From Wenzhouxiangella sp. (GTDB taxonomy: Bacteria; Pseudomonadota; Gammaproteobacteria; Xanthomonadales; Wenzhouxiangellaceae), in NCBI GenBank assembly GCA_007127425.1, contig SKZJ01000044.1, positions 1-12,012 of the forward strand: a stretch of DNA of 12,012 nucleotides. The letters are read 5' to 3'. The notes under the pieces are model-generated. The model saw nothing but the letters and a program-made list of their open reading frames with translations. It made no database searches and was not told the DNA's origin. The translations under genes were made by a program, and so were the position numbers. Position 1 is the stretch's first letter, and each line of letters opens with the position of its first letter. This document shows positions 45-12,012 of the stretch, piece by piece.

Positions 45-974
45 TCATGGTTTTCTGGCCAGGAGTGTAATGATGCGGAAATTGGGTGTCTTGCGCTCGA
101 TGGACGTGACATCGCAGAAGTCGGTTTCCAGCCCGGCGGCAGCACAGTGTTCGGTCAGTTGCGCGGTGGTGAAACCACTATTGGCATGGCCGTAGGTCTT
201 GACGTGACCGGTATGACGGTGGCGTTTGAGCGTGGCGCCGATCAGGCGCCCACCGGGGCGCAGCACGCGGGCGGCCTCGCCGATCGCCAGCGCCGGTTTG
301 CGGCTGTAGGGCAGGGCATGCATCATCAACACGGTATCGAAGCTTGCATCCTCGAAGGGCAGGGCATGCATGTCGCCCAGGTGGAATCGCACATTGTTCA
401 GCCCGGCCACGCGCTCGCGGCCGGCGGCCACCACCTTTTCCGAAACGTCCATGCAGTCGATCGACTCGGCCCGGCGTGAAAGCAGCTCGCCCATGACGCC
501 GTCTCCGGAAGCGATATCCAGTACCCGCCCCAGCGAGAGCAGTTGTACCAGCGCCCGCGCCGTCGCCTCCCAGGTGCGACCTGGCGAATAATGCCGCTCC
601 ATGTCGCCGGCGACACTGTCGGGCCAGTTGCGCCCCACCGCACGCCGGGCCAGCACTTCGGGCAGGTGTTCGGCGTCGGCCGCGATCTGCGCGTCGTCCA
701 GATTCTCGCGGAACAGCGCCCACAGGCGATGAAGCTCCAGGTTATCGTCCGGGTTGCCCAGGCGATAGTAGACTGAAACCCCCTCGCGCCGGTCGACCAC
801 CAGCTCGGCCTCGCGCAGACGCGCCAGATGCGTGGACACACGGGGCTGTGCGAGGTGGGTCACCTCGGCCAGCTCGGCCACGGTCAACTCCTCGGCTTCC
901 AGCAAGGCCAGCAACCGCAGTCGGGTCGAATCACCCAGCAGGCTGCAATGCCGATTGACACGTTCCAGGTCGAT
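45..974 (-). CDS. SahR-type ArsR regulator fused to a SAM-dependent methyltransferase domain
   Basis: The protein joins two parts. Residues about 5-75 are an ArsR-family winged helix with the typical GDSTRLRLLALL entry helix and a recognition region, TVAELAEVTHLAQPRVSTHL (31-50). Residues about 130-260 are a class I methyltransferase fold with the SAM-binding motif VLDIASGDG (151-159), an acidic/LPF motif (DMHALPFEDASFD) and VLRPGGRL. This architecture is that of SahR, a proteobacterial repressor of methionine and SAM-cycle genes that responds to S-adenosylhomocysteine; that function is inferred from family. Start: the first usual start codon in frame is TTG at 914, but it would delete the start of the ArsR domain. 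The conserved reading extends back to a stop at 989-987. AAGGA at 986-982 sits seven bases before an ATC at 974, chosen here (309 residues). ATT at 980, ATC at 977 and CTG at 968 are alternatives. The gene diverges from the kinase gene. Family call is strong; exact start and target genes are not. Confidence 0.8.
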   Translation of the reverse strand: MDLERVNRHCSLLGDSTRLRLLALLEAEELTVAELAEVTHLAQPRVSTHLARLREAELVVDRREGVSVYYRLGNPDDNLELHRLWALFRENLDDAQIAADAEHLPEVLARRAVGRNWPDSVAGDMERHYSPGRTWEATARALVQLLSLGRVLDIASGDGVMGELLSRRAESIDCMDVSEKVVAAGRERVAGLNNVRFHLGDMHALPFEDASFDTVLMMHALPYSRKPALAIGEAARVLRPGGRLIGATLKRHRHTGHVKTYGHANSGFTTAQLTEHCAAAGLETDFCDVTSIERKTPNFRIITLLARKP

Positions 975-979
975 GATAA

Positions 980-1005
980 TATCCTTTTATCGCGATGGAA
1001 AGATA
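980..1005. promoter_or_regulatory. imperfect 26-bp palindrome, probable operator of the SahR-type regulator
   Basis: The core ATCGCGAT (989-996) is a perfect palindrome. It is flanked by TATCCTTTT (980-988) and GGAAAGATA (997-1005), which match as inverted arms at six of nine positions, so the pattern is TATC-TT-ATCGCGAT-AA-GATA. It lies directly over the ribosome site and start region of the regulator gene, as expected of an autoregulatory ArsR-family operator. Binding is inferred from symmetry and position. Confidence 0.5.
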
Positions 1006-1149
1006 AGTCAATAGCGTAGCTTGCTTCCAATGCATGTGCAAGCCTCCCTGACAGGAGCAGCAGCCGGGGCGGTCGGCACGGACCTCAAGCCGTTGCCGGG
1101 ACACCATGTAGTAAAGTGATGGTCATTCAAGCCAACCACGAGCCACGCC

Positions 1150-3822
1150 GTGTCGAATGAACCCTCCAGGGCGCGATTGACTCGCGCCCGCAGGAGTCTG
1201 CTCGATCACCTGTTCGATCAGCTCATGGATGTCGATCAGGCATCCCGGGATCGACAGCTCCGGAGCCTCGCCAGGCGTGCTCCGAGAATCCATCGATGGC
1301 TGGTCGAGCTGCTCGAAGCTGCCGAGGAAACGGGCGGCGAGATCGACGATTTGTTCCAGCGTGCCGGCAGCGCTGTTCGGGAATCCAGCAAAGCGAGCGA
1401 ACTGGTGCTGGCGCCTGGAACGCGGCTGGGGGCGTGGTGTGTGGTCGAGGCGGTCGGCAGTGGCGGCATGGGTTCGGTCTATCGTGCCGAACGGGCAGAC
1501 GGCGCCTTCGAAATGACGGTCGCGATCAAGCTGATACGGATCCGCAGGGACAATCTGGATGAGCGGCTCAGGATCGAGCGGCAACTTCTGGCGCGCCTCA
1601 ATCATCGCAATATAGCCAGGTTGATCGATGGCGGGACCACGGAAGACGGTCACGCCTTCCTGGTCATGGAATGGATCGCGGGGCATGATCTCGACGAGTA
1701 TCTCGACCGGCATGAGTGCGATCTTGCGGCTCGCCTGGATCTGTTCGAGCAGGTCGCCGAGGCCGTCGGGCATGCACACCAGCGCCAGGTAGTCCACGGT
1801 GATCTCAAGCCGGCCAACGTTCGCGTTACGGAAACTGACCGGGTCCGGCTGGTCGACTTCGGCGTGGCGAGACTTCTCCACGACGAAGGGGATACGGAAA
1901 GTGTGGGCAGTGGCGCGCTGACCCCGGCATTTTGCGCTCCCGAACAGCTCAGGGGCGAAAGCGTCTCGACCCAGTCCGACATCTGGTCGCTGGGCGTATT
2001 GTTGCAATGGCTATTGAGCGGTGTGGTCCGTCGGGTCGCGCCCGGTCAGTCGATCGATCGGGAACTACCGGCCGACCTGGCATACAGAAACGATCTGGTC
2101 GCGATCATTGACCGTGCCTGTGCCGAAGACCCCGACGTGCGCTATGCCGGAGTCTCCCAGTTGCTGGAAGACGTGCGTCGTTGCCGGGAAGGCTTTCCAG
2201 TGCGGGCTCGCCGACAAACCCGCACCTATCTCCTGTCGCGCTTTATTCGCCGCCATCGCCTTGCCGCCGGTGTCACGGTCACCGTATCGATTGTCCTGTG
2301 CCTTGCTGTCGTCGGTGCGCTCTGGCAGGCCCACCATGCCACGCTGCAGCGTGATCGGGCTGAACTGGAGGCAGAGCGGGCGATTCAGGCCGAGCAGCAG
2401 TCCGAGCAGTTGGCCGAAGAGCTCCAGCAAGTCGTGGATTTTCAGTCCGCACGCCTGGCAGCCGTCGATCCTGCGGCGATGGGTATCGGATTGCGTCAGG
2501 AGACCCTGGACAAGCGCCGGTCGGCCCTGCAGGGGTTGACCGAAGACCCCGGGGAAATCGAAAGAGAGCTCGAACTGCTCGACCAGTCGCTAACCGGCGT
2601 GAACTTCACGGATGTCGCGTTGGCATCCATGGATCGCAATATCTTCGAACCGACGCTTGCGACCATCGATCGCGAGTTTGCCGGTCAGCCGCTCTTGCGG
2701 GCAAGGCTCTTGCAGGTAACGGCAACCACCATGCGGGGGTTGGGGATCAGCGAGCGGACCGAGGCGCCGCAGACCCAGGCCCTGAAAATTCGTCGTGAGT
2801 TGCTGGGCGATGACGATCTCGATACATTGCAGTCGATCAGCGAAATGGGCGCGCTTCACGGGCAACTGGGTCAGTATGAGGAGCAGCGTCGACTCTACCA
2901 GGAGGCCATGATCGGGTATCGAGAGCTACTGGGTGAGCGCCACCTGCAAACATTGATTATGACAGGCAGCATGGGTACGCACTACAGCAGGAGTGGCGAG
3001 CTCGAACTGGCCGAACAGTACTTTGCCGATGTGCTGGAAATGAGCCGTGAAAGTTTGGGTTCGGAACATTCGCAGACCCTGGCCGCGCTAAACAATATGG
3101 GTACGCTGCTCGGTGACCAGGAACGCTTTGATGAAGCCACGCCCTTTCTGCGCGAGGTGCTGGAAACCCGTCGGCGCATGCTGGGCGACAACCACCCGGA
3201 CACATTGGGATCAGTCAGCAACATGGGCTGGCTGCTGCAACAGAAGGGGCGCCAGGACGATGCGTTGCCCTATTACCGGGAAGCACTGGAAGGTCGCAGG
3301 CAGGTGCTTGGTAATGATCATCCCTCCACCATGGTTTCGATCAATAACATGGGTTTCCTGCTTGGTGCGCTGGGAAGGAATGAAGAGGCAGAGCCGTTTT
3401 CACTGGAGGCCGTGCAGAATGCCCGCCGCATGTATGGCAACGACCATCATCGCACGCTGATCTTCATCAACAACCGCAGCTCGCTCCTGCAGTCGCTGGG
3501 GCGTTATGAAGAAGCTGAAGCACTGGCGGCCGAGGTGGTCGAACGTGGTCACCGCGCCTTGCCGCCGGGGCATTGGCACCTGGGTGTTTTTCAGGCGCGA
3601 CGCGCGTTGACCCTGGTTGCGCAGAATCGGCACGATCAGGCCGAGGGGCCGCTGCTAGAAGCGTACGAGATCTACAAGGCTGCGCTGGGTGATGATCACA
3701 GCCGTACCAGGGATATCGCGAACGAGCTGGCGGAACTCTATGCAGAGTTGAACGAGTCCGCGCCTGGCAATGGCCACGATCTTGCAGGGGAGAAATGGCG
3801 TCTGAAGGCTCAGGGAGACTGA
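1150..3822 (+). CDS. membrane-anchored Ser/Thr protein kinase with TPR sensor domain (PknB-like)
   Basis: A Ser/Thr kinase of 890 residues. An N-terminal helical region (1-85) resembles the leader found in kinases linked to TIGR02999 sigma factors. The kinase domain (about 90-350) has the glycine loop GSGGMGSVY (103-111), VAIK with K127, helix-C E143, catalytic loop HGDLKPANV (216-224; D218, K220, N223), DFG (236-238) and APEQ (263-266), so it should be active. It is a non-RD kinase, having HGD in place of HRD. One transmembrane helix (about 371-393) follows a basic stretch, placing the kinase in the cytoplasm and the rest in the periplasm. A coiled-coil stretch (396-430) leads to about seven 42-residue kinesin-light-chain-type TPRs (about 540-860) with the recurring LGxDHxxTLxSxxNMGxLL pattern. 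The GTG start is used because a stop lies in frame at about 1117 and no other start lies between; the ribosome site is weak. Its probable substrate is the sigma factor at 4480-5073. The signal sensed is unknown. Confidence 0.9.
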   Translation: MSNEPSRARLTRARRSLLDHLFDQLMDVDQASRDRQLRSLARRAPRIHRWLVELLEAAEETGGEIDDLFQRAGSAVRESSKASELVLAPGTRLGAWCVVEAVGSGGMGSVYRAERADGAFEMTVAIKLIRIRRDNLDERLRIERQLLARLNHRNIARLIDGGTTEDGHAFLVMEWIAGHDLDEYLDRHECDLAARLDLFEQVAEAVGHAHQRQVVHGDLKPANVRVTETDRVRLVDFGVARLLHDEGDTESVGSGALTPAFCAPEQLRGESVSTQSDIWSLGVLLQWLLSGVVRRVAPGQSIDRELPADLAYRNDLVAIIDRACAEDPDVRYAGVSQLLEDVRRCREGFPVRARRQTRTYLLSRFIRRHRLAAGVTVTVSIVLCLAVVGALWQAHHATLQRDRAELEAERAIQAEQQSEQLAEELQQVVDFQSARLAAVDPAAMGIGLRQETLDKRRSALQGLTEDPGEIERELELLDQSLTGVNFTDVALASMDRNIFEPTLATIDREFAGQPLLRARLLQVTATTMRGLGISERTEAPQTQALKIRRELLGDDDLDTLQSISEMGALHGQLGQYEEQRRLYQEAMIGYRELLGERHLQTLIMTGSMGTHYSRSGELELAEQYFADVLEMSRESLGSEHSQTLAALNNMGTLLGDQERFDEATPFLREVLETRRRMLGDNHPDTLGSVSNMGWLLQQKGRQDDALPYYREALEGRRQVLGNDHPSTMVSINNMGFLLGALGRNEEAEPFSLEAVQNARRMYGNDHHRTLIFINNRSSLLQSLGRYEEAEALAAEVVERGHRALPPGHWHLGVFQARRALTLVAQNRHDQAEGPLLEAYEIYKAALGDDHSRTRDIANELAELYAELNESAPGNGHDLAGEKWRLKAQGD

Positions 3823-3865
3823 GATACTTGCCCGTTAGCGCCAGGTGTGACTGGTGACCGCCAAT

Positions 3866-4318
3866 TCATGTGGGGCAGGTCGCACGAACCTCCATCGTTT
3901 TGGGTACTGCATCCGGGAAGCGATCGGGATTGAGCAGGATCATTGAGCGCATCAGTCGAGTCTCGCCGTGCAAACCACGGTCGAGATCAAGAGTCAGTCC
4001 CTCGGTAGGGACCGGGCCGGAGGAACTGCTACCGATTTTCCGGTTGACGTATTCGCTGCGTTCGGGTGAGGTGAGGCGCAGCACCGCCTCGTAGCCCGGT
4101 GGTGCATCCCGCTCGCTCACATATAGCACTCCTTGCTCGAAACGTACGGTGACCCGGCCCATTCTTTCGGAGCAGTACACGGAATCTACTGCGATGTCTC
4201 GGCCATTGAAGTTGAGGTGATTTTTGCCATTTTCATCCTGGAAGCTACCGTTTCCGCCACCGCAGGCAATAACCAGCAACAAGGTTGCGGGAAGAACGAT
4301 CAACGACTTCCTGTGCAT
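3866..4318 (-). CDS. small putative lipoprotein of unknown function
   Basis: The ATG at 4318 gives 150 residues and is preceded by GGAGG nine bases upstream; a longer reading from 4363 adds 15 residues but has no better ribosome site and would bury the signal peptide. The N-terminus MHRK plus a hydrophobic run ends in the lipobox VIAC with the acylated cysteine at residue 19, followed by glycines and no Asp at +2, so outer-membrane sorting is likely. The mature part (132 residues) is polar, with two more cysteines, one in VYCSERM and one three residues from the end, that could form a disulphide. No family is recognised. It lies between the kinase and sigma genes on the opposite strand, converging with the kinase (43-base gap) and diverging from the sigma gene (161-base gap). 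A role in kinase input or as a sigma target is possible, but rests on position alone. Confidence 0.75.
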   Translation of the reverse strand: MHRKSLIVLPATLLLVIACGGGNGSFQDENGKNHLNFNGRDIAVDSVYCSERMGRVTVRFEQGVLYVSERDAPPGYEAVLRLTSPERSEYVNRKIGSSSSGPVPTEGLTLDLDRGLHGETRLMRSMILLNPDRFPDAVPKTMEVRATCPT

Positions 4319-4409
4319 GATGACTTTCCTCCATTGAACTGATTCTTCTGCCTGAAGCGCCAAGCAGTTTGATGAACGGGTTAATAAGGTCTACGCGAAA
4401 TGATCCTCC

Positions 4410-4442
4410 AGCAGGACAAAAGTCTGTTGTTACGGTCCTGCT
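4410..4442. promoter_or_regulatory. inverted repeat in the divergent lipoprotein/sigma control region
   Basis: AGCAGGAC (4410-4417) is exactly inverted as GTCCTGCT (4435-4442) across 17 bases, and two further flanking positions match. A second, overlapping pair, AGTCT (4421-4425) and AGACT (4443-4447), could form an alternative hairpin. The site sits about 40 bases before the sigma gene start and about 90 before the lipoprotein start. It could be an operator, or a hairpin in the sigma mRNA leader. No clear -35/-10 pair was found on either strand. Confidence 0.4.
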
Positions 4443-4479
4443 AGACTGTCGACCAGAATCTTGTTGATCTGGACGCATC

Positions 4480-5073
4480 GTGTCGAAAAGCGAGCCACGT
4501 AAAGAGGTTGCCCGAGAAGACGTCACGCAATTGCTCGACGAAATACGCTCGTCGCCGGAGCTATTCGACCAACTCGTGCCGATGGTCTATGACGACATGA
4601 AGCGAATTGGCCGCGCGCAGCGTCATCGCCTGGGCGCCAGCCCGACGATGCAGACTACCGCACTGGTGCATGAGGCATTTCTCAAGTTGCGTGGCGGCAT
4701 GACCGATCCAATCGAGAACCGACTTCACTTTCAGCGCCTGGCGGCATGCGTCATGCGCCAGCTCATCCTGGATTATGCGCGCAAGCGACTGACGTCCAAG
4801 CGCGGCGGCGACCAGGTTCGGGAGACCTTCGATGAGGGGCGATATGGCTTGGCGGGGGAGGATCTGGACCGGATCATCGCGGTCGAGGAGGTGTTGGTGG
4901 CCCTGGGGTCACGGGACCGTCGCATGGCTGAAGCGGCCGCAGCACAGCTTTACGCCGGCTACACCGTCGAGGATATCGGAGACATGCTGGGTGTATCCAG
5001 CCGCACCGTGATTCGTGATCTGCGCCGCGCCCGCGCCTGGCTGAAGGTGGAACTGGCCGACTTCCGACAGTGA
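4480..5073 (+). CDS. ECF sigma factor, TIGR02999/ECF43 type, partner of the Ser/Thr kinase
   Basis: A 197-residue sigma-70 family protein. Region 2 spans about 25-105 and carries the hallmarks of the TIGR02999 group: QLVPMVYDDMKRI, TTALVHEAFLKL (59-70), HFQRLAACVMRQLILDYARKR and SKRGGD. Region 4 spans about 132-190 with the helix-turn-helix VEDIGDMLGVSSRTVIRDLRRARAWL. Canonical ECF factors have an acidic DxED-like motif in region 2.2 that contacts the core polymerase. Here the equivalent place reads MQTTALVHE, without acidic residues ahead of the LVHEA core. In the related Vibrio pair EcfP/PknT, kinase phosphorylation of a threonine in this region supplies the missing negative charge. T59 and T60 are the matching candidates here (inference). 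No anti-sigma gene is seen. GTG start; the ribosome site is poor. Confidence 0.9.
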   Translation: MSKSEPRKEVAREDVTQLLDEIRSSPELFDQLVPMVYDDMKRIGRAQRHRLGASPTMQTTALVHEAFLKLRGGMTDPIENRLHFQRLAACVMRQLILDYARKRLTSKRGGDQVRETFDEGRYGLAGEDLDRIIAVEEVLVALGSRDRRMAEAAAAQLYAGYTVEDIGDMLGVSSRTVIRDLRRARAWLKVELADFRQ

Positions 5074-5170
5074 TTGAAAAAATTCGAGGGGCGTGCGCTT
5101 TCACTCCTCATGCGGGCAGGTGAAATTGCCGGAAAGCTAGCGAGTGCAGGATGTTAAGAAAACATTAATG

Positions 5171-5176
5171 TATAAT
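5171..5176 (+). promoter_or_regulatory. probable sigma-70 -10 box for the beta-barrel gene
   Basis: TATAAT at 5171-5176, directly preceded by TG, is a perfect -10 hexamer in an AT-rich patch. No good -35 was found 16-18 bases upstream; TTAAGA (5154-5159) is too close. Transcription would start near 5183 and give a leader of roughly 65 bases before the ATG at 5250. Confidence 0.5.
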
Positions 5177-5249
5177 GGGTCGTGTCGGTGATCCTGGGGG
5201 GTAGCTGGCATGTTTTTTCGATGTTCAAAAATAACCAAGGAGAGCAAGG

Positions 5250-5756
5250 ATGAAAAAGATTTGTGTTGGCGTTTTCGCGATTTCTGCACTGCTGATGGCC
5301 TCTGCCGCCTCGGCGCAGGTGACCGGCAGCGTGGGCTACACCCATCTGGATGAAGATGTCAGTGTGGGAGCGCTGCAAGGAACGATTGGATACCGGCTTC
5401 CGGTGATGGAAGGAGTCGCCGGTAGCGGGTTTTTCATTCCCGAGTTGCGGGCCGGCGTCGGCATCAACGACGACACCGTGGGAGGCGTCAAGGTCGAAAT
5501 CGACAATTACTACGGTGTGGCACCGCGATTCCAGTACGAGGCTGATGGCGGTTTGTACGGTTTCCTGCAGACTTCCTACGTGAACTACAAGGTGAAGGGG
5601 TCCGCGCTGGGTGTGTCGGCTTCCGACAGCACCTGGGAATTCGGTGCCGGTCTCGGCGTGGGCATGGCCTTCAGCCAGGCGCTGGGAGCTGAGGTGTCCT
5701 GGGAGCGCGTCGACAGTGCCGACTTGTTCAATATTTCAATGCGTTTCGGTTTCTGA
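5250..5756 (+). CDS. small outer-membrane beta-barrel protein
   Basis: A 168-residue protein with a classic Sec signal peptide: MKK, a hydrophobic core and a probable cut after ASA at residue 22. The mature 146 residues alternate polar and hydrophobic positions in strands, with turns rich in Gly/Asp/Asn and aromatic girdle residues, and end in SMRFGF, a terminal-Phe signal recognised by the BAM complex. The size fits an eight-stranded OmpA/OmpX/OmpW-like barrel. AAGGAG (5237-5242) lies seven bases before the ATG. It has its own -10 box and its own terminator, so it is probably monocistronic. Its place just after the sigma gene invites a link, but the sigma-70-like -10 box argues against strict dependence on that sigma factor. 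The transport or structural role is unknown. Confidence 0.8.
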   Translation: MKKICVGVFAISALLMASAASAQVTGSVGYTHLDEDVSVGALQGTIGYRLPVMEGVAGSGFFIPELRAGVGINDDTVGGVKVEIDNYYGVAPRFQYEADGGLYGFLQTSYVNYKVKGSALGVSASDSTWEFGAGLGVGMAFSQALGAEVSWERVDSADLFNISMRFGF

Positions 5757-5770
5757 TTCAATAAACCGAG

Positions 5771-5798
5771 GCAGGCCGGCATGTCTGTGCCGGCCTGC
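5771..5798 (+). terminator. intrinsic terminator-like hairpin after the beta-barrel gene
   Basis: GCAGGCCGGC (5771-5780) pairs perfectly with GCCGGCCTGC (5789-5798) around an 8-base loop, 14 bases after the stop codon. The T-run that follows is short (ACTTTGATC), so efficiency is uncertain, but stem strength and position fit a terminator. Confidence 0.7.
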
Positions 5799-5860
5799 AC
5801 TTTGATCGTCAATTCCACAAGTGCTCCGATTCACGCCGAAACGGCCAAGCCCTGACAGCC

Positions 5861-7057
5861 ATGACGAACGCCTCAGTGCCGGACTTGCAGGTAGATGTCG
5901 TGGTCATCGGTGCCGGCGCAGCCGGCCTGATGTGTGCATTGACGGCAGGGGGGCGCGGCAGGCGGGTACTGGTGCTCGATCATGCCAATAAGATCGGCAA
6001 GAAGATCCTGATGTCCGGGGGCGGGCGCTGTAATTTCACCAACATGTATTCCATGCCGGAGCATTTTCTCTCGGCCAACCCGCATTTCTGCAAGTCGGCG
6101 CTGAGCCGCTACACGCCCTGGGATTTCATCGCACTGGTTGAAAAGCACGGTGTGCCTTACCACGAGAAGAAGCTCGGGCAGCTTTTCTGTGATCAGTCTT
6201 CGAAAGACATCGTGGCGCTGCTGCTGGCCGAATGTGCAGCGGCCGGGGCGGAAGTGCGTACGCATTCACCGGTCGAGATCGAACAGCTCGGTCCGCCGCA
6301 TCGCCTGAGAACCGGCTCGGAAAGAATTCATTGCGAATCGCTGGTGATTGCCACCGGCGGATACTCGATTCCTCGCATGGGCGCGACCGGATTCGGGTTC
6401 GACCTGGCCCGGTCACTGGGAATGGCCGTGCAGCCGACCCGGGCCGCCCTCGTGCCGTTCGTGTTCGAGGGCCGCAAGCTCTCACAGATCGAGGGGCTGG
6501 CCGGGGTGTCGGTCGATACCGCCAGCGAGGCCGGAGGTGCCGTATTCCGGGAGAATATCCTGTTTACTCACAAGGGGCTGAGCGGCCCGGCCATGCTGCA
6601 GGTGTCGTCTTACTGGCAGCCTGGCGAGCCGGTGGCTATCGACCTGCTGCCGGATCTCGACCTGGTCGAACACCTGCGTGCCGAGCGTCGTCAGCGGCCG
6701 CGTACTCACCTCAAGAATGTGCTGGCCGAGCACCTGCCCAAACGACTGGTGCAGCGCTGGTGCGAGTTGTGGTTGGAAGACCGCCCCATGGCCGAGATTG
6801 GTGACGAGGCGATCGCCGCCATCGCGGGCCGTCTCAAGCCCTGGCGCGTGTGGCCGGCCGATACCGAAGGCTACCGTACGGCCGAAGTCACGCTGGGCGG
6901 TGTGGATACCGATGTGCTGTCGTCAAAGACCATGGAGTGCCGCAATCACCCGGGGCTCTACTTCATCGGCGAAGTGGTGGATGTGACCGGCCATCTCGGT
7001 GGCCACAATTTCCAGTGGGCCTGGGCCTCGGGTCATGCCGCCGGTTTGGCTGTCTGA
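5861..7057 (+). CDS. yhiN: FAD/NAD(P)-binding flavoprotein of the YhiN/HI0933 family
   Basis: A 398-residue soluble flavoprotein, about the usual family length. The FAD-binding Rossmann motif GAGAAG is at 17-22. The family signature IGKKILMSGGGRCNFTN follows (45-61), then IATGGYSIPRMGATGFGF in the middle. The C-terminal EVVDVTGHLGGHNFQWAWASG closes the FAD site and closely matches E. coli YhiN. Members are annotated variously as aminoacetone oxidase-like, flavocytochrome-like or BaiN-like; the physiological substrate is not settled, so no reaction is assigned. The ATG has no clear ribosome site (preceding bases CCCTGACAGCC) but the N-terminus fits the family. It stands alone after a terminator and its 3' end overlaps the convergent cyclase gene by 25 bases. 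Confidence 0.88.
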   Translation: MTNASVPDLQVDVVVIGAGAAGLMCALTAGGRGRRVLVLDHANKIGKKILMSGGGRCNFTNMYSMPEHFLSANPHFCKSALSRYTPWDFIALVEKHGVPYHEKKLGQLFCDQSSKDIVALLLAECAAAGAEVRTHSPVEIEQLGPPHRLRTGSERIHCESLVIATGGYSIPRMGATGFGFDLARSLGMAVQPTRAALVPFVFEGRKLSQIEGLAGVSVDTASEAGGAVFRENILFTHKGLSGPAMLQVSSYWQPGEPVAIDLLPDLDLVEHLRAERRQRPRTHLKNVLAEHLPKRLVQRWCELWLEDRPMAEIGDEAIAAIAGRLKPWRVWPADTEGYRTAEVTLGGVDTDVLSSKTMECRNHPGLYFIGEVVDVTGHLGGHNFQWAWASGHAAGLAV

Positions 7058-9003
7058 GTCGCGTTACGCGGCCATTTGATACTGGAAGTTTCGCGGTGCG
7101 AGCTTTGTACCTCGAGGTAACCAGCCTGAACCAGCTCGGGCAGTGCCTGACTGATCCGATCAGGCAACTCATCCTGTGGCGGGGTGCTCGCCCATCGCAC
7201 TCCGATCCAGGCATTGCGCCAGGTGCGCTTGGCCGCATACAGGCAGTTGTCGGCAAGCTTGATCACTTCTTCCCAGTGGACCATCCTGGCGTTGTCGGGG
7301 AACACGGGGTACTGCGCATAGCCGATTGAGCACGTCAGACTCATGCTTCGGCCGTCACCGAGATCGAATCGGTGGTCGGCGATGCTTTGTCGCAAGCGTT
7401 CGGCGAGGGTCGGGGCGAACTCCGAATCGGTGAAACGTGCCACCAGGAGGAACTCCTCGCCACCCCAGCGCACGGCCGTATCGGACTCCCGGATATTTCT
7501 GAGCAGAATGCCGGACATCTGTTCGAGAACACGATCACCCGCGGCGTGGCCGTATATATCGTTGGCCTGTTTGAAGTGATCGATATCGATCATGAGGAAA
7601 AGCAGGTTGACATTAGCTCCCTGGTTCTTGTCAGGGCTGGACTTGTACTCTCTGTAGTGCCGGTCGATCAACGCAACATCGACGGGTGCTTGATCGGCGA
7701 GGTAGCGGCGATTACGCAGGCCCGTCAGGGGATCGGTCAGGCTCTGCTCTCCAAGCGCCTTGTTGGCGCTTTCCAGGGCCTGGTTCGCTTCGGAAAGCTC
7801 ACGGGTTCGTTCCTCGACACGCTGCTCCAGCGTGCGCTTGGCTTCGCTCAGCGAGGCCAGTGCTCTTTTTCTCTCAAGGCTGCTGGCAATCTGCGTGGAG
7901 ACGAAACGAAGGAGTTGCAGGTCTTCCTCCCGATAGAGTCGATCCTCGCGATAACTCTGCACGACGATCAGCCCCAGCGTCTTGCCCTCACACTGTAACG
8001 GCACCCCCATCCATGCATGTGCCAGTTCACCCTTGATGACTGCCTTTCCTGCATCAGCAAGACGTTGCATGTCCTTTCGAGTGAGCAGCACACCATTGTC
8101 CTGACTAAGCGCATACTCGGACATCCCCATGCCCAGAGGGCGTTTGCTCTGGGATCGCAGATACTCGTCGGCGTAGTAGCCGAACTCCAGCGCCTGATCG
8201 TCATCGACCAACAGGGCGATGAAGAAGTTGTCAGCATAGATCAGTTCGGCCACTTCATGATGCACCAGTCGGAAAAAGGCCTTCTCCTGGCCAATCTCAC
8301 CGGCCTGTTCGGCAATGTGGTAAAGCGCTTTCTGCAGCCGCTCGTTTCGACGACGCTGGGCGACCTCGGCTTTCAGGTTGCGGTTGGCTTCGGCCAGTTC
8401 CCGGGTGCGCGCAATGACCGCCTGTTCCAGTTCACGGTTGGCCCACCGGCGTTGCAGCATGGTGAGAATGTGGCTGGCAACGAAGCTGAGCAGGTTCTGG
8501 TCATCCTTGCTGTAGGTCTCCTGCTCGTCGTAGCTCTGCACGACCAGGATGCCCTTGACCTGGCCTCCGTCGAGCATGGGAACACCAAGCCAGTCCTTCG
8601 CGTTGGCACCGCGGGCCTTGAGCGGCCCGGGCAGTTCTCTTGCAATGGTGTCAAGCGAGCCCCGTACCGGCCTGGCCAGCCGGATCACGTACCAGGTCAG
8701 ACTGTGCTCCAGACTGTCCAGAGGGATGTCCGCCTCCATGTCCGGGGGTTCCGTGGCAACATCGGCGAAGTAGCGGAACCGCACCGTGTCCTGGCTTGCA
8801 TTGTAGAGAAAGATGTAGAAGTTCTCGGCGTACATCAGCTCGGAAATGATTTGATGCAGCCGCTGGAGGATGTCATCGGTGTCCAGATCGGCGCCGGCCA
8901 GGTCAGAGATCTGGTACAGGGCATTCTGAATACGCTCGGCCCTTCGCAGCTCCTCGATGGTTTGCTGGAGTTCGTCCTGGTTGGGAATGGTGGGCTTGGG
9001 CAT
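7033..9003 (-). CDS. diguanylate cyclase with tandem GAF domains (GAF-GAF-GGDEF)
   Basis: A 656-residue cytoplasmic protein with no signal peptide or membrane segment. It should make cyclic di-GMP from two GTP. GAF1 (about 25-185) and GAF2 (about 225-378) are clear copies of one another, sharing LIYADNFFIALL- and WxGVPL...GLIVVQSY-type blocks at matching positions. Each is followed by a coiled-coil linker (about 185-225 and 378-420) that would pass the sensory state along a dimer. The GGDEF domain (about 420-595) opens with SLTDPLTGLRNRRYL, has MIDIDHFKQANDIYGHAAGD, and an intact GGEEF active site (514-518). RESD (505-508), five residues before it, matches the product-inhibition I-site. About 60 residues of unrecognised tail follow. 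The effector bound by the GAF domains is not evident. The ATG at 9003 has a weak ribosome site. Transcribed alone, converging with yhiN. Confidence 0.93.
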   Translation of the reverse strand: MPKPTIPNQDELQQTIEELRRAERIQNALYQISDLAGADLDTDDILQRLHQIISELMYAENFYIFLYNASQDTVRFRYFADVATEPPDMEADIPLDSLEHSLTWYVIRLARPVRGSLDTIARELPGPLKARGANAKDWLGVPMLDGGQVKGILVVQSYDEQETYSKDDQNLLSFVASHILTMLQRRWANRELEQAVIARTRELAEANRNLKAEVAQRRRNERLQKALYHIAEQAGEIGQEKAFFRLVHHEVAELIYADNFFIALLVDDDQALEFGYYADEYLRSQSKRPLGMGMSEYALSQDNGVLLTRKDMQRLADAGKAVIKGELAHAWMGVPLQCEGKTLGLIVVQSYREDRLYREEDLQLLRFVSTQIASSLERKRALASLSEAKRTLEQRVEERTRELSEANQALESANKALGEQSLTDPLTGLRNRRYLADQAPVDVALIDRHYREYKSSPDKNQGANVNLLFLMIDIDHFKQANDIYGHAAGDRVLEQMSGILLRNIRESDTAVRWGGEEFLLVARFTDSEFAPTLAERLRQSIADHRFDLGDGRSMSLTCSIGYAQYPVFPDNARMVHWEEVIKLADNCLYAAKRTWRNAWIGVRWASTPPQDELPDRISQALPELVQAGYLEVQSSHRETSSIKWPRNATQTAKPAA

Positions 9004-9097
9004 GCGTGGTGTCGGGGCTTGCCGGTGGATACTGCCCCTAGTTTACCCCGTCACTCAAATTGTTACTTATAGCGAGTGCCTCAGGGGCCAGATGCAA

Positions 9098-9111
9098 GGC
9101 GCGATTGCGCC
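9098..9111. repeat. hairpin in the gap between gloB and the cyclase gene, possible dispersed repeat
   Basis: GGCGC (9098-9102) pairs with GCGCC (9107-9111) around GATT. It lies 20 bases past the gloB stop codon on the minus strand, inside a GC-rich stretch bordered by GGCC at both sides (9086-9089 and about 9121-9124). A stretch reading CAGATGCAAGGCGCGA is reminiscent of intergenic repeats seen in other gammaproteobacteria, but that is recollection only. It may simply end gloB transcripts; the T-run is absent. Confidence 0.3.
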
Positions 9112-9130
9112 GGCGTAGTGCGGCCAGCGA

Positions 9131-9895
9131 TCAGCCATCCTTCCAGCGTCTGATCACGCCGAAGACTGCGGCCGGGTTGTTGCCGGTGCCGGGTTCGCGC
9201 CGGTTGGCGGCTTCGATGACCGCGGGCTCGCGGGCGCGCAGGAACGGGTTGGTGGCGCGTTCCTCGGCCAGGGTGGAGGGCAGGGTGATGCGCCCCTGTT
9301 CGCGCAGGCCGCGTGCCTCCTCGAAGCGCTGCTTCAGCGCCATGTTGTCGGGCTCGACTTCCAGGGCGAAGCGGCAGTTGTCGAGCGTGTATTCGTGGCC
9401 GCAGTAGATTTTCAGTTCGCCGGACAGGTTGGACAGCTTGTCGAGCGAAGCCAGCATCTGTTCCGGTGTGCCCTCGAACAGGCGGCCGCAGCCGATGGAA
9501 AACAGCGTGTCGCCGCTGATCAGGCGTTCGTCATCATGCAGCATGATGTGACTGGTGGTGTGGCCGGGCGTTTCCAGTACCTGGAATGACAAGGAGGGTC
9601 GATCGATTTCGATGCGATCTCCCTCACCGACCGGACGCGTGACTTGTTCGATGCGTGCATCGCGCGGCCCCCAGACCGGCACCTCGTGGCGCGAGAGGAT
9701 ATCGCCGAGTCCGCCGGTGTGGTCCCTGTGGTGATGGGTGATCAGGATGGCAGTCAGTTCGAGACGGTTTTTTTCCAGAAAAGCCAGGGGTTCTGCAGCG
9801 CTGCCGGGATCGACCAGAACGCAATGGCTACCGTCATGCAGTGCCCAGACATAGTTGGTCTCCAGTACCGGGACGGCTTCGATGGTCAGCGGCAT
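9131..9895 (-). CDS. gloB: glyoxalase II (hydroxyacylglutathione hydrolase)
   Basis: A 254-residue metallo-beta-lactamase-fold enzyme that hydrolyses S-lactoylglutathione to lactate and glutathione, the second step of methylglyoxal detoxification. All metal ligands are visible: THHHRDH (53-59; H54, H56, D58, H59), H112 in PGHTTSH, D129 in SGDT and H167 in CGHEYT. The C-terminal part (about 170-254), with NPFLRAREP and a final RRWKDG, matches the glyoxalase II C-terminal substrate-binding domain. The start at 9895 is chosen because AAGGAG lies six bases before it and MPLTIEAVPVLETNYVW is the family N-terminus; a longer reading from 9934 is not needed. It is divergent from the yafS-like gene, as in E. 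coli, with a gap of only 59 bases. Confidence 0.95.
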   Translation of the reverse strand: MPLTIEAVPVLETNYVWALHDGSHCVLVDPGSAAEPLAFLEKNRLELTAILITHHHRDHTGGLGDILSRHEVPVWGPRDARIEQVTRPVGEGDRIEIDRPSLSFQVLETPGHTTSHIMLHDDERLISGDTLFSIGCGRLFEGTPEQMLASLDKLSNLSGELKIYCGHEYTLDNCRFALEVEPDNMALKQRFEEARGLREQGRITLPSTLAEERATNPFLRAREPAVIEAANRREPGTGNNPAAVFGVIRRWKDG

Positions 9896-9954
9896 ATCGG
9901 GCTCCTTCTGGTATCCTTTCCAGTGTGAACGCAATCCATTCTAACGTGCACCGA

Positions 9955-10554
9955 ATGCCGGCCGGATTCGACCGGCTGCAGCGACGCGAAGCCCCCCTGG
10001 TGGCAGCGGGGCTGGCCGGTGTGCATGCTCGCTGGTTGCTGGAAATCGCCCCGACCGCCAGTGCCTCGCCGGATCTGAGCGTGGAGCGTTGCCGGGTGTT
10101 GGTCGACGGTGCCACCTGTCGCTGGCCGTTCCGTGCCCCGCTGGATCTCTGGCCACTGGAGGATCGGTCGGTGCCGTTGATCCTGCTGCGACATGTCTGG
10201 CAGCCGGCGATCGAGGTCGACCCGCTCGATGAAGCCCTGCGTGTGCTCAAGCCGAATGGCGTCCTGATTTCGGTGACCGCCAACCCCTGGCACCATCTGG
10301 CCTGGCGTGAAATCGGGCGGGATGCCTTGCGCCTGCCGAGCTGGCCGCATTTCCAGATTCTGCACGCACGGCGCGGGTTCAGCCTGGCCACGCCCATGGC
10401 CAGCCAGGTGCGAGGATTTGTGCCAGGTTTGAGTGCCGCGCTGGTGCTGGTGGCGCGCAAGCCGGCCGAGCCGGCCCGGATCGAGCCGTTGCGCTTTTCA
10501 CGCCCACAGGCGTCGCCGGGCGCGGCCGCCGTCACCCAGTGCCGGGCGGCATGA
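9955..10554 (+). CDS. yafS: YafS-like class I methyltransferase-fold protein
   Basis: A 199-residue protein whose place between gloB and rnhA, and whose C-terminus (ALVLVARKP ... AVTQCRAA, comparable to the VARKR ... GATRQCRK end of E. coli YafS), identify it as the YafS-type methyltransferase-fold protein. The later fold elements are visible: [21 protein letters not shown] (loop/strand 4), [13 protein letters not shown] (helix and strand 5) and NPWHHLAWR. The N-terminal glycine-rich SAM motif is not recognisable: where GxGxG is expected it reads [11 protein letters not shown]. Catalysis is therefore uncertain. The ATG at 9955 fits the YafS N-terminus, but GTG at 9925 in the same frame is possible; neither has a good ribosome site. 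Its stop overlaps the rnhA start in ATGA, indicating translational coupling. Confidence 0.8.
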
Positions 10555-10994
10555 CTCGTAGCGGGCAAATCCATATCTGGACCGATGGCGCCTGCCTGGG
10601 CAATCCCGGCCCCGGTGGCTGGGGTGCGTTGTTGCGCTGGAATGGCCACGAACGCGAGCTTTCAGGTGGCGAGGCCGACACCACCAACAATCGCATGGAG
10701 TTGATGGCTGCCATCCAGGCTCTGGAGGCACTCAAGCGGCCCAGTGACGTGATCCTGACCACCGATTCACAGTACGTGCGCAAGGGCATCACGGAGTGGA
10801 TGACCAACTGGAAGAAAAACGGCTGGAAGACCGCCTCGAAGAAAGCCGTGAAGAACGCCGAACTCTGGCAACGCCTCGACCGAGCCCGCGAACGCCACCA
10901 GGTGCAATGGGACTGGGTGAAAGGTCACTCCGGGCACCCGGAGAATGAACGCGCCGATGAGCTTGCCAGCGAGGCGGCGAAGGGTCAGCAGTAA
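10551..10994 (+). CDS. rnhA: ribonuclease HI
   Basis: A 147-residue RNase HI that cuts the RNA strand of RNA-DNA hybrids (R-loops, replication primers). The catalytic set is complete: D12 in [15 protein letters not shown]50 in [13 protein letters not shown]72 in TTDSQYV, H126 in [18 protein letters not shown] and D136. The basic protrusion [17 protein letters not shown] is present, as in E. coli. The length is slightly short of E. coli's 155 because the C-terminal tail is trimmed. ATG at 10551 is used rather than an in-frame GTG at 10539, as it matches the family N-terminus and overlaps the upstream stop codon. Confidence 0.97.
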
Positions 10995-11004
10995 AAACCT
11001 TTTG

Positions 11005-11121
11005 TCCACAGATGAACACAGATGAACACAGGTATAAAAACATTTCTTGAAATTGACTCGGCGGGAACTGGATACATCAACGAGTCGTCTTGCGATTTTC
11101 AAATCTGTGTTTATCTGTGGA
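11005..11121. repeat. 117-bp MITE-like element with 19-bp terminal inverted repeats
   Basis: The left end TCCACAGATGAACACAGAT (11005-11023) is repeated in inverse at 11103-11121 with one mismatch in 19. GATGAACACA is also directly repeated at the left (11011-11020, 11021-11030). Inside, GACTCG (11055-11060) is inverted as CGAGTC (11081-11086). The element fills nearly all of the rnhA-dnaQ gap, is AT-richer than its surroundings and encodes no protein. This resembles a non-autonomous mobile or dispersed repeat; CACAGATGAACACAGATG-like repeats are familiar in many bacterial genomes, though copy number cannot be judged from one window. A weak promoter (TTGAAA at 11047, GATACA at 11071) may lie inside it. 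Confidence 0.7.
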
Positions 11122-11140
11122 TGAATAAAAAGAGGGTCAA

Positions 11141-11845
11141 ATGAGGCAAGTCGTACTGGATACGGAAACAACCGGCCTGGAGCCGTCGGAGGGCCACCGC
11201 ATCATCGAGATCGGTTGCCTGGAAATGGTCGAACGGCGCATTACCAATCGCACGTTCCATGTCTATCTGAACCCCGATTGCGAGGTCGAGCACGGCGCGA
11301 TCCAGGTTCACGGCATCACCAATGAATTCCTGGCCGATAAGCCGCGTTTTGCCGATGTCGCCGAAGATTTCATCGATTTCATTCGCGACTCCGAACTGGT
11401 GATCCACAATGCCTCGTTCGACGTCGGTTTCCTCGACGCTGAACTCGCAAGGCTGGATTCTCCGGCGCGGGTTGAGGAGCACGCCACCGTGCTCGATACG
11501 CTGCACCTGGCCCGCGAGCTGCACCCGGGGCAGCGGGTGAGCCTGGACGCCTTGTGCAAGCGCTACGAAGTCGATAATTCCGGCCGCGAACTGCACGGCG
11601 CGTTACTCGATGCCGAGTTGCTGGCCGAGGTCTATCTGGCCATGACCGGTGGCCAGGTCGATCTTTGCCTGGATCTGTCGTCCGACTCCGATGGCGGCGA
11701 AGGCCACGAGCCTTTGGGCGAGATTGACCTGTCGAAGCTGGTGGTGCGCAAGGCGACTGGCGATGAGCTGGCTGCGCACCGGGCGCGGCTGGAGGCGATT
11801 CGGGAAACTGCTGGCAAGTGCCTGTGGCTTGAGGCCAGCGAATAG
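11141..11845 (+). CDS. dnaQ: DNA polymerase III epsilon subunit (3'-5' proofreading exonuclease)
   Basis: A 234-residue DEDDh exonuclease that removes misinserted bases for the replicative polymerase. Active-site residues are D7 and E9 in LDTETTGLEP, D94 in HNASFDVGFL, H152 and D157 in LHGALLDAE. The linker carries QVDLCL (172-177) in the place of E. coli's clamp-binding QTSMAF, after the conserved MTGGQ. The C-terminal region (about 196-230: SKLVVRKATGDELAAHRARL ... CLWLE) matches the segment that binds the alpha subunit. GAGG lies about seven bases before the ATG. Length is close to E. coli (243). It is co-directional with rnhA, unlike the divergent pair in E. coli. Confidence 0.97.
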   Translation: MRQVVLDTETTGLEPSEGHRIIEIGCLEMVERRITNRTFHVYLNPDCEVEHGAIQVHGITNEFLADKPRFADVAEDFIDFIRDSELVIHNASFDVGFLDAELARLDSPARVEEHATVLDTLHLARELHPGQRVSLDALCKRYEVDNSGRELHGALLDAELLAEVYLAMTGGQVDLCLDLSSDSDGGEGHEPLGEIDLSKLVVRKATGDELAAHRARLEAIRETAGKCLWLEASE

Positions 11846-11940
11846 CCTTCATTAGTTCGGTGTCGACGCGCCACTCTACGAACCGGAAAACGTGAAATGT
11901 GAAACGGGGGCGAAGCGACGTGGTTTCCTTTCCGTGAAGA

Positions 11941-11971
11941 TGGCCAATGGTTTACGCCTCACCATTGGCCA
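11941..11971. repeat. perfect 11-bp hairpin in the gene-free right edge
   Basis: TGGCCAATGGT (11941-11951) pairs exactly with ACCATTGGCCA (11961-11971) around nine bases. It lies about 95 bases past dnaQ and has no T-run after it. The rest of 11846-12012 holds no convincing gene or tRNA. A looser pair, CGGAAA and TTTCCG, flanks the centre of 11882-11934. The stretch could be a repeat element, the end of a mobile element beyond the window, or a factor-independent transcription end. Confidence 0.45.
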
Positions 11972-12012
11972 CCCATGCTAAAACAAGGCCACCGGATCTA
12001 ATCCCCGCTTTA

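Follow-up and report, generated by a model that had tools for sequence, protein, structure and literature searches.

A transmembrane Ser/Thr kinase and an extracytoplasmic function (ECF) sigma factor encoded by a Wenzhouxiangella strain likely form a signalling module of the PknS/EcfK type, and a lipoprotein gene lying between them is likely to be a direct target of the sigma factor. The three genes are located within positions 1 to 12,012 of contig SKZJ01000044.1 (assembly GCA_007127425.1; the whole 12,012-nucleotide stretch is referred to below as the window), which belongs to a metagenome-assembled genome (MAG) of 2.08 Mb that is 65% complete. The closest named relatives of the sigma factor come from soda-lake sediment MAGs labelled Wenzhouxiangella, which makes a soda-lake member of this genus the most likely host, and the order kinase/lipoprotein/sigma is also kept in two relatives. 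Gene content, protein families, the phosphorylation motif, the linkage of the two regulatory genes, the matching clades and the tie of a sequence motif to exported genes were all computed here. The new element is a candidate promoter, TGTCYT-N16-GCGT, which occurs at the lipoprotein gene (designated lipo1) and recurs before exported genes near the modules of relatives. Features of the locus, including the tetratricopeptide repeats (TPRs) of the kinase, are as follows (ORF, open reading frame; aa, amino acids; dN/dS, ratio of non-synonymous to synonymous substitution rates).

1150..3822, + strand: transmembrane Ser/Thr kinase, 890 aa, GTG start, non-RD (lacking Arg-Asp) catalytic loop HGD; from the ORF, Pfam and the match to PknS
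1150..1422, + strand: conserved N-terminal segment of about 91 aa before the kinase domain; dN/dS of 0.25-0.28 in three close genomes
1423..2178, + strand: kinase catalytic domain, residues 92-343; from Pfam and the structure match
2254..2334, + strand: single membrane helix, about residues 369-395, its N-terminal-side flank rich in arginine; from hydropathy
2803..3687, + strand: TPR array, predicted to be periplasmic, seven 42-residue units, residues 552-846; from Pfam and the repeat period
3866..4324, - strand: lipo1, a lineage-specific lipoprotein of 152 aa, on the strand opposite to kinase and sigma; lipobox recognized by reading
4393..4418, - strand: candidate ECF promoter TGTCCT-N16-GCGT, 74 bp before the lipo1 start; strict motif match
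4480..5073, + strand: sigma factor of the ECF43/TIGR02999 type, 197 aa, GTG start; from the TIGR02999 profile and QTTA
4651..4662, + strand: codons Q58-T59-T60-A61 of the sigma factor, T60 occupying the position of the threonine phosphorylated in EcfP (the second Thr of STTA)

An earlier note on this DNA, made without database searches, had described an intact Ser/Thr kinase with one membrane helix and about seven TPRs, and this description was borne out by Pfam, hydropathy and the repeat period. The protein matches Pkinase (E 4e-39), TPR_10 (E 1.7e-60) and TPR_12 (E 5.7e-48). Six TPR_10 stretches were scored by Pfam, while the unit boundaries (residues 552, 594, 636, 678, 720, 762, 804 and 846) follow an exact 42-residue period and therefore delimit seven full units. 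A periplasmic location of these repeats is predicted from the membrane helix and its flanks. The lysine, the catalytic-loop Asp and the DFG motif are all intact, and the loop reads HGD rather than HRD. Of the kinases scored, 19 of 21 in the Wenzhouxiangella set have HGD, compared with 5 of 72 in distant loci, where 65 carry HRD; judged by sequence, HGD is a variation within the kinase family in which the catalytic Asp is retained. In general, non-RD kinases rely less on phosphorylation of the activation loop.

The two ends of the kinase gene have diverged differently, as measured by synonymous substitutions (dS). Its catalytic domain is nearer that of genome G008 (dS 0.86, vs 1.25 to G009), whereas its TPR part is nearer that of G009 (dS 0.51, vs 1.57 to G008). 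This mosaic divergence suggests recombination between kinase genes.

The assignment of the sigma factor to TIGR02999/ECF43 in the same note was upheld by a profile score of 149.5 bits (cut-off 126.15), as was its statement that an anti-sigma gene is lacking: none of the seven scanned window proteins between positions 45 and 9003 matched an anti-sigma family. Region 2.2 of the protein carries QTTA in place of the DAED of ordinary ECF sigma factors, and all 13 aligned orthologues share the ten-residue block QTTALVHEAF unchanged. According to PMC13147305, QTTA, with a phosphorylated threonine, is the ECF43 consensus for this region, and PMC8999054 places the phosphate of EcfP on the second Thr of STTA. 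PMC13147305 also reports Ser, Thr, Asp or Glu at the position of EcfK T106, in the linker, in 76.9% of ECF43 members. In the window sigma factor, a gapless offset from T60 leads to E115, adjoining T116, as a possible equivalent. Five sigma factors of the window's genome exceed the TIGR02999 cut-off, and all five have an adjacent kinase gene.

In PknS of Xanthomonas citri, an N-terminal extension precedes the kinase domain, and a membrane helix leads on to TPRs in the periplasm; the protein phosphorylates the ECF43 sigma factor EcfK in region 2.2 (PMC13147305). The kind of system proposed in the earlier note, a kinase-to-sigma pathway with periplasmic TPR input, has therefore already been published; the pairing is supported by our data, and the design is not new. 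The best solved-structure match to the window kinase is PDB 9EED, the PknS kinase domain (E 1.3e-43). The two proteins have in common the kinase domain, the single helix, TPRs beyond the helix and an N-terminal extension of comparable place and length (about 91 aa in the window kinase, 83 aa in PknS), and in both loci the kinase gene is next to an ECF43 sigma gene. They differ in the catalytic loop (HRD in PknS, HGD here), in the number of TPRs (three by Pfam in PknS, seven units here) and, in their sigma factors, in region 2.2 (QATE in EcfK, QTTA here). Whereas EcfK drives a type VI secretion system, the predicted targets of the window sigma factor are lipoproteins and surface proteins, and, unlike in PknS/EcfK, one predicted target lies between kinase and sigma. 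Compared with other ECF43 loci, the kinase gene is likewise close by, but one opposite-strand gene intervenes. Control of the kinase by its TPR domain was left to future work by the authors of PMC13147305.

The sigma factor EcfP of Vibrio parahaemolyticus is an ECF43 protein without DAED that is activated by phosphorylation of the second Thr of STTA (PMC8999054, PMC8103513). It shares with the window sigma factor its class, the absence of DAED and a threonine in region 2.2. The signal of the PknT/EcfP system is polymyxin. Neither a periplasmic TPR array nor an interposed lipoprotein, as in the window locus, is described for PknT/EcfP in the excerpts of PMC8999054 and PMC8103513. By sequence, the window TPRs also match the TPR domains of KLC1/KLC2 (E 3e-29), which are eukaryotic cargo adaptors; this likeness concerns the repeat type only and says nothing about a ligand.

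To place the locus among its relatives, linkage was surveyed in the best 80 of 377 relatives of the sigma alignment (named loci). Since QTTALVHE was one of the two scan patterns, motif counts from this survey are biased. A neighbourhood survey had been proposed in the earlier note, for which homologues not found together elsewhere would have spoken against the module; the two genes occurred together (kinase ≤1 kb from sigma) in 66 of the 80 loci, though 6 of the 14 closest (L064, L070, L071, L072, L073 and L074) showed no kinase within this distance. In the 66 linked loci the arrangement was sigma then kinase (46), kinase then sigma (8), convergent (8) or divergent (4). The kinase-first order occurs in 8/8 linked named loci of the window's clade and in 0/58 elsewhere, and a further kinase-first paralogue was found on contig 241 of the window's genome. 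The unusual order pointed out in the earlier note is thus real, but it is a trait of the whole clade; that it is a peculiarity of this window was ruled out by the eight kinase-first clade loci.

Phylogenetic trees placed the window proteins in a sigma clade and a kinase clade, each comprising 11 rows and supported at 100/99. Nine loci are common to the two clades. Only the sigma clade contains L042 and L047, whose kinase is cut off at the contig end, and only the kinase clade contains L152 and L212, whose sigma gene is likewise truncated away or was not seen; the trees conflict on the position of L043 within the clade. Kinases without a linked sigma gene group beside the window's kinase clade (18-row group, support 91/95). 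Together with QTTA, the linkage and the shared loci agree with the earlier view of kinase and sigma as one module, and sequence comparison supports the conclusion that the two belong together.

The gene that separates them has a narrow distribution. lipo1 had no match in Pfam or NCBIfam, and 5.8 billion proteins contain nine relatives, itself included. It was found in 3 of 30 genomes of the genus (G000, G008 and G009), flanked each time by the kinase and sigma genes, and its dN/dS of 0.18-0.21 shows purifying selection. Elsewhere in the clade, the two regulatory genes could both be seen in seven loci, where they overlap or are ≤40 bases apart, and from this tight spacing the lipo1 gene appears as an insertion that broke an operon. 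The lipoprotein inserted on the other strand, as the earlier note put it, is accordingly a later insertion, seen in three genomes. Comparison with relatives suggests that lipo1 is a gene switched on by the module.

Lipoproteins of a second family are convergent to the kinase gene of L152 and, in G003, to the sigma gene. L152 is contig 84 of the window's genome and encodes a lipoprotein of this family (107-628) and a full-length kinase (669-3344) that is 51% identical to the window kinase; the contig ends before any sigma position could be read. In the cultured strain Wenzhouxiangella sediminis XDB06 (L066), which has the linked pair, the second-family lipoprotein gene bears the promoter motif described below. 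Homology between lipo1 and the second family was not found, as profile comparison gave a probability of 13.9% that stemmed from the signal peptide only. The lipoprotein encoded upstream of the G019 kinase reached 81% against the second family in the same type of comparison and is possibly a distant relative of it.

The candidate promoter was obtained from a spaced-word scan of 24 upstream regions, in which one site type occurred in 4 sequences, compared with a largest count of 3 in 30 shuffles. The motif read from it is TGTC[CT]T-N16-GCGT; the site before lipo1 is exact in G009 and has one mismatch in G008. Whole-genome counts are at chance (in the window's genome, 14 sites vs 11 for controls), which leaves context as the only way to tell genuine sites from background. 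As a context test, sites were scored for the start codon of a signal-peptide ORF 12-85 bp downstream. The first round covered sites from 16 of the 30 genus genomes. In the six discovery genomes 17/72 sites preceded such an ORF (one identical duplicate dropped), and in the three hold-out genomes with the sigma factor (G028, G012 and G006) 6/25 did so. The seven genomes without the sigma clade gave 1/34 (one-sided Fisher test against these genomes: p 0.005 for discovery, 0.019 for hold-out). By reading, four of the six hold-out ORFs encode lipoproteins and one resembles a large surface protein of G020/G025.

The second round used the form ending in GCGTA in ten more genomes of the genus and two of the family. 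One of two sites preceded a signal-peptide ORF in the newly added sigma-bearing genome G022, and none of 11 in the new genomes without the clade (G017, G024 and G027). G030 gave 0/1, and G016, G010 and G034 had no sites. Among genomes used earlier for the motif, G019 gave 1/1, and G002, G005 and G029 together 4/5. The cargo behind the sites comprises right-handed beta-helix proteins, a Peptidase_S74-domain protein and a 1762-aa protein with vWA and F5/8 type C domains. No earlier report of the motif was found in searches of an open-licence library. These counts indicate that the sigma factor probably reads a defined promoter and has lipo1 among its targets.

Several observations weigh against a module with lipo1 as its direct target, and some of them concern the pairing itself. 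In L064 and L073 only 585 and 318 bases, respectively, are available upstream, where a kinase gene would lie (for L064, a TPR-match trace stands at the same place in L042). The other kinase-less loci among the closest, L070, L071, L072 and L074 (52-62% identity), have >2 kb upstream and still no adjacent kinase. In the window, lipo1 splits the operon, so kinase and sigma may perhaps no longer be co-transcribed. Both points would fit a pair that are neighbours by history only, the sigma factor being constitutive or otherwise controlled and the kinase having other substrates. We regard this as very improbable: the linkage outlasts the insertion in three genomes, the sigma and kinase clades match, and the aligned kinase-less orthologues L048 and L049 keep QTTA. 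Moreover, all five genomes of L070-L074 hold related kinases elsewhere, and no sigma gene adjoins those examined.

Variants of the pair were also seen in other loci. The L048 sigma gene (2269-2871, same locus as L070) encodes a QTTA orthologue of 62% identity without a kinase; its neighbours, named by reading the sequence, are apparent acyl-CoA dehydrogenase and phosphotransferase genes. In L050 (8028-13952), a single sigma gene precedes a tandem pair of kinase genes of the same type; this sigma factor may receive two inputs. In L165 (contig 333 of the window's genome), positions 318-2915 encode a kinase with a closely related catalytic domain and no sigma gene is present on the 4.6-kb contig; this kinase is possibly a second input to one of the genome's sigma factors. 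L207 contains an apparent decayed module, with a sigma remnant and a frameshifted lipoprotein (76-579 and 1421-1947), and L208 an apparent kinase remnant (6251-6931) about 2 kb from an intact motif-bearing lipoprotein gene.

The remaining objections to the module with lipo1 as target concern the motif. Besides being at chance in whole-genome counts, it was derived from regions adjoining this module. A weight matrix gave 16 matches in 147 kb of clade loci and none in 345 kb of other sigma/kinase loci, all 16 having been used to build it. A long form of the motif has four matches in 30 genomes and no control match, and was read from sites that include these same four; they lie about 3.0 kb (G003) and 2.5 kb (G025) from the sigma gene, about 3 kb upstream of the kinase gene (G019) and about 3 kb from a partial kinase gene (G029). 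Five of 15 clade loci have no site (L041, L042, L045, L047 and L212; contigs of 3.3-10.8 kb), and some genomes classed as lacking the sigma factor are incomplete (G001 65%, G014 73% and G015 84%). In the window, no motif precedes kinase or sigma, so autoregulation is not indicated. Motif and cargo are also present in G002, G005 and G029, in which no clade sigma factor was detected (E 1e-58); a clade kinase, 87% to the G019 kinase, lies at a contig end in G029, and in G005 the contig concerned also has a kinase remnant, but G002 stays unexplained.

G002 also bears on the possibility that the kinase and sigma factor work as described while lipo1 is an unrelated passenger, driven by another sigma factor, the motif being that of a different regulator. 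The scarcity of lipo1 (3 of 30 genus genomes, nine protein relatives with itself included) and the many related sigma factors per genome (≤17 matches to the window sigma factor, genus and family) would suit such a passenger. The distribution of the motif would not: the matrix had no match in 121 kb of loci of other sigma clades nor in 51 kb around orphan sigma genes, and the tie between motif and exported genes is absent where other sigma factors of the family but not the clade occur (1/34 and 0/11). We therefore consider this explanation unlikely and retain the module in which lipo1 is a target.

For this module we infer activity, phosphotransfer, motif recognition and TPR sensing in the following scheme. 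The kinase would span the inner membrane, its catalytic domain facing the cytoplasm and its TPR superhelix the periplasm, where a signal, possibly a protein or peptide, would shift the TPR state and activate the kinase. The kinase would then phosphorylate T60 in region 2.2 of the sigma factor, and phospho-T60 would provide the negative charge that the protein lacks by having QTTA instead of DAED, thereby allowing RNA polymerase binding. The active sigma factor would transcribe from TGTCYT-N16-GCGT(A) promoters, one of which, between the kinase and sigma genes, would drive lipo1, while others, in relatives, would drive lipoproteins and large surface proteins.

lipo1 might also act back on the pathway, as a periplasmic ligand or inhibitor of the TPR sensor that is driven by the sigma factor and resets or sustains the kinase. 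In all three genomes that have it, lipo1 lies between the two genes, it is predicted to be exported and has a candidate sigma promoter, and the second lipoprotein family is convergent to the L152 kinase and the G003 sigma gene. Most clade members, however, are without lipo1, and its predicted structure is too poor to use (mean predicted local distance difference test score, pLDDT, 41.5), so we hold such feedback to be quite unlikely. An extension of it, to be entertained with slightly more reserve, is a closed envelope loop in which the kinase TPRs read the sigma-driven lipo1 and the module gauges export or folding of its own product; lineages would then swap different lipoproteins in beside the pair.

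The surroundings of the locus were also inspected. Upstream, positions 955-1010 are common to the kinase gene and a divergent ArsR-methyltransferase gene and include a conserved TTATC...GATAA stretch that may belong to an ArsR-type regulator. On the 3′ side of sigma, a gene for a small beta-barrel protein (5250-5756) has a TATAAT-like upstream element conserved in G009; it was not seen in G008 in the interval that separates sigma from the following gene. Positions 7033-9003 encode a GGDEF protein with two GAF matches, which is also present at this place in G009. Positions 9004-12012 were viewed as ORFs only. Sigma70-type promoters and terminators in 850-5900 were not more frequent than in shuffles, and viral contigs scanned with the sigma factor alone, a search that reaches close relatives only, gave no match. 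Beside modules or cargo, a membrane protein recurs (L046, 8192-8974; L207, 693-1400; L209, 9111-9866; L210, 2127-2900); Pfam gave no good match for the two copies scanned, and the motif lies upstream of two copies, those of L046 and L210.

Judging from PMC13147305, PMC8999054 and PMC8103513, a regulon or a sensor ligand is known for few kinase-activated sigma factors. If the motif is right, the clade gains a promoter of defined sequence and a small set of exported targets, testable with a single reporter, and lipo1 would be both a natural readout and a candidate ligand. The natural variants within the clade, i.e. linked, split and lipoprotein-interrupted pairs as well as non-RD kinases, bear on how TPRs control a kinase.

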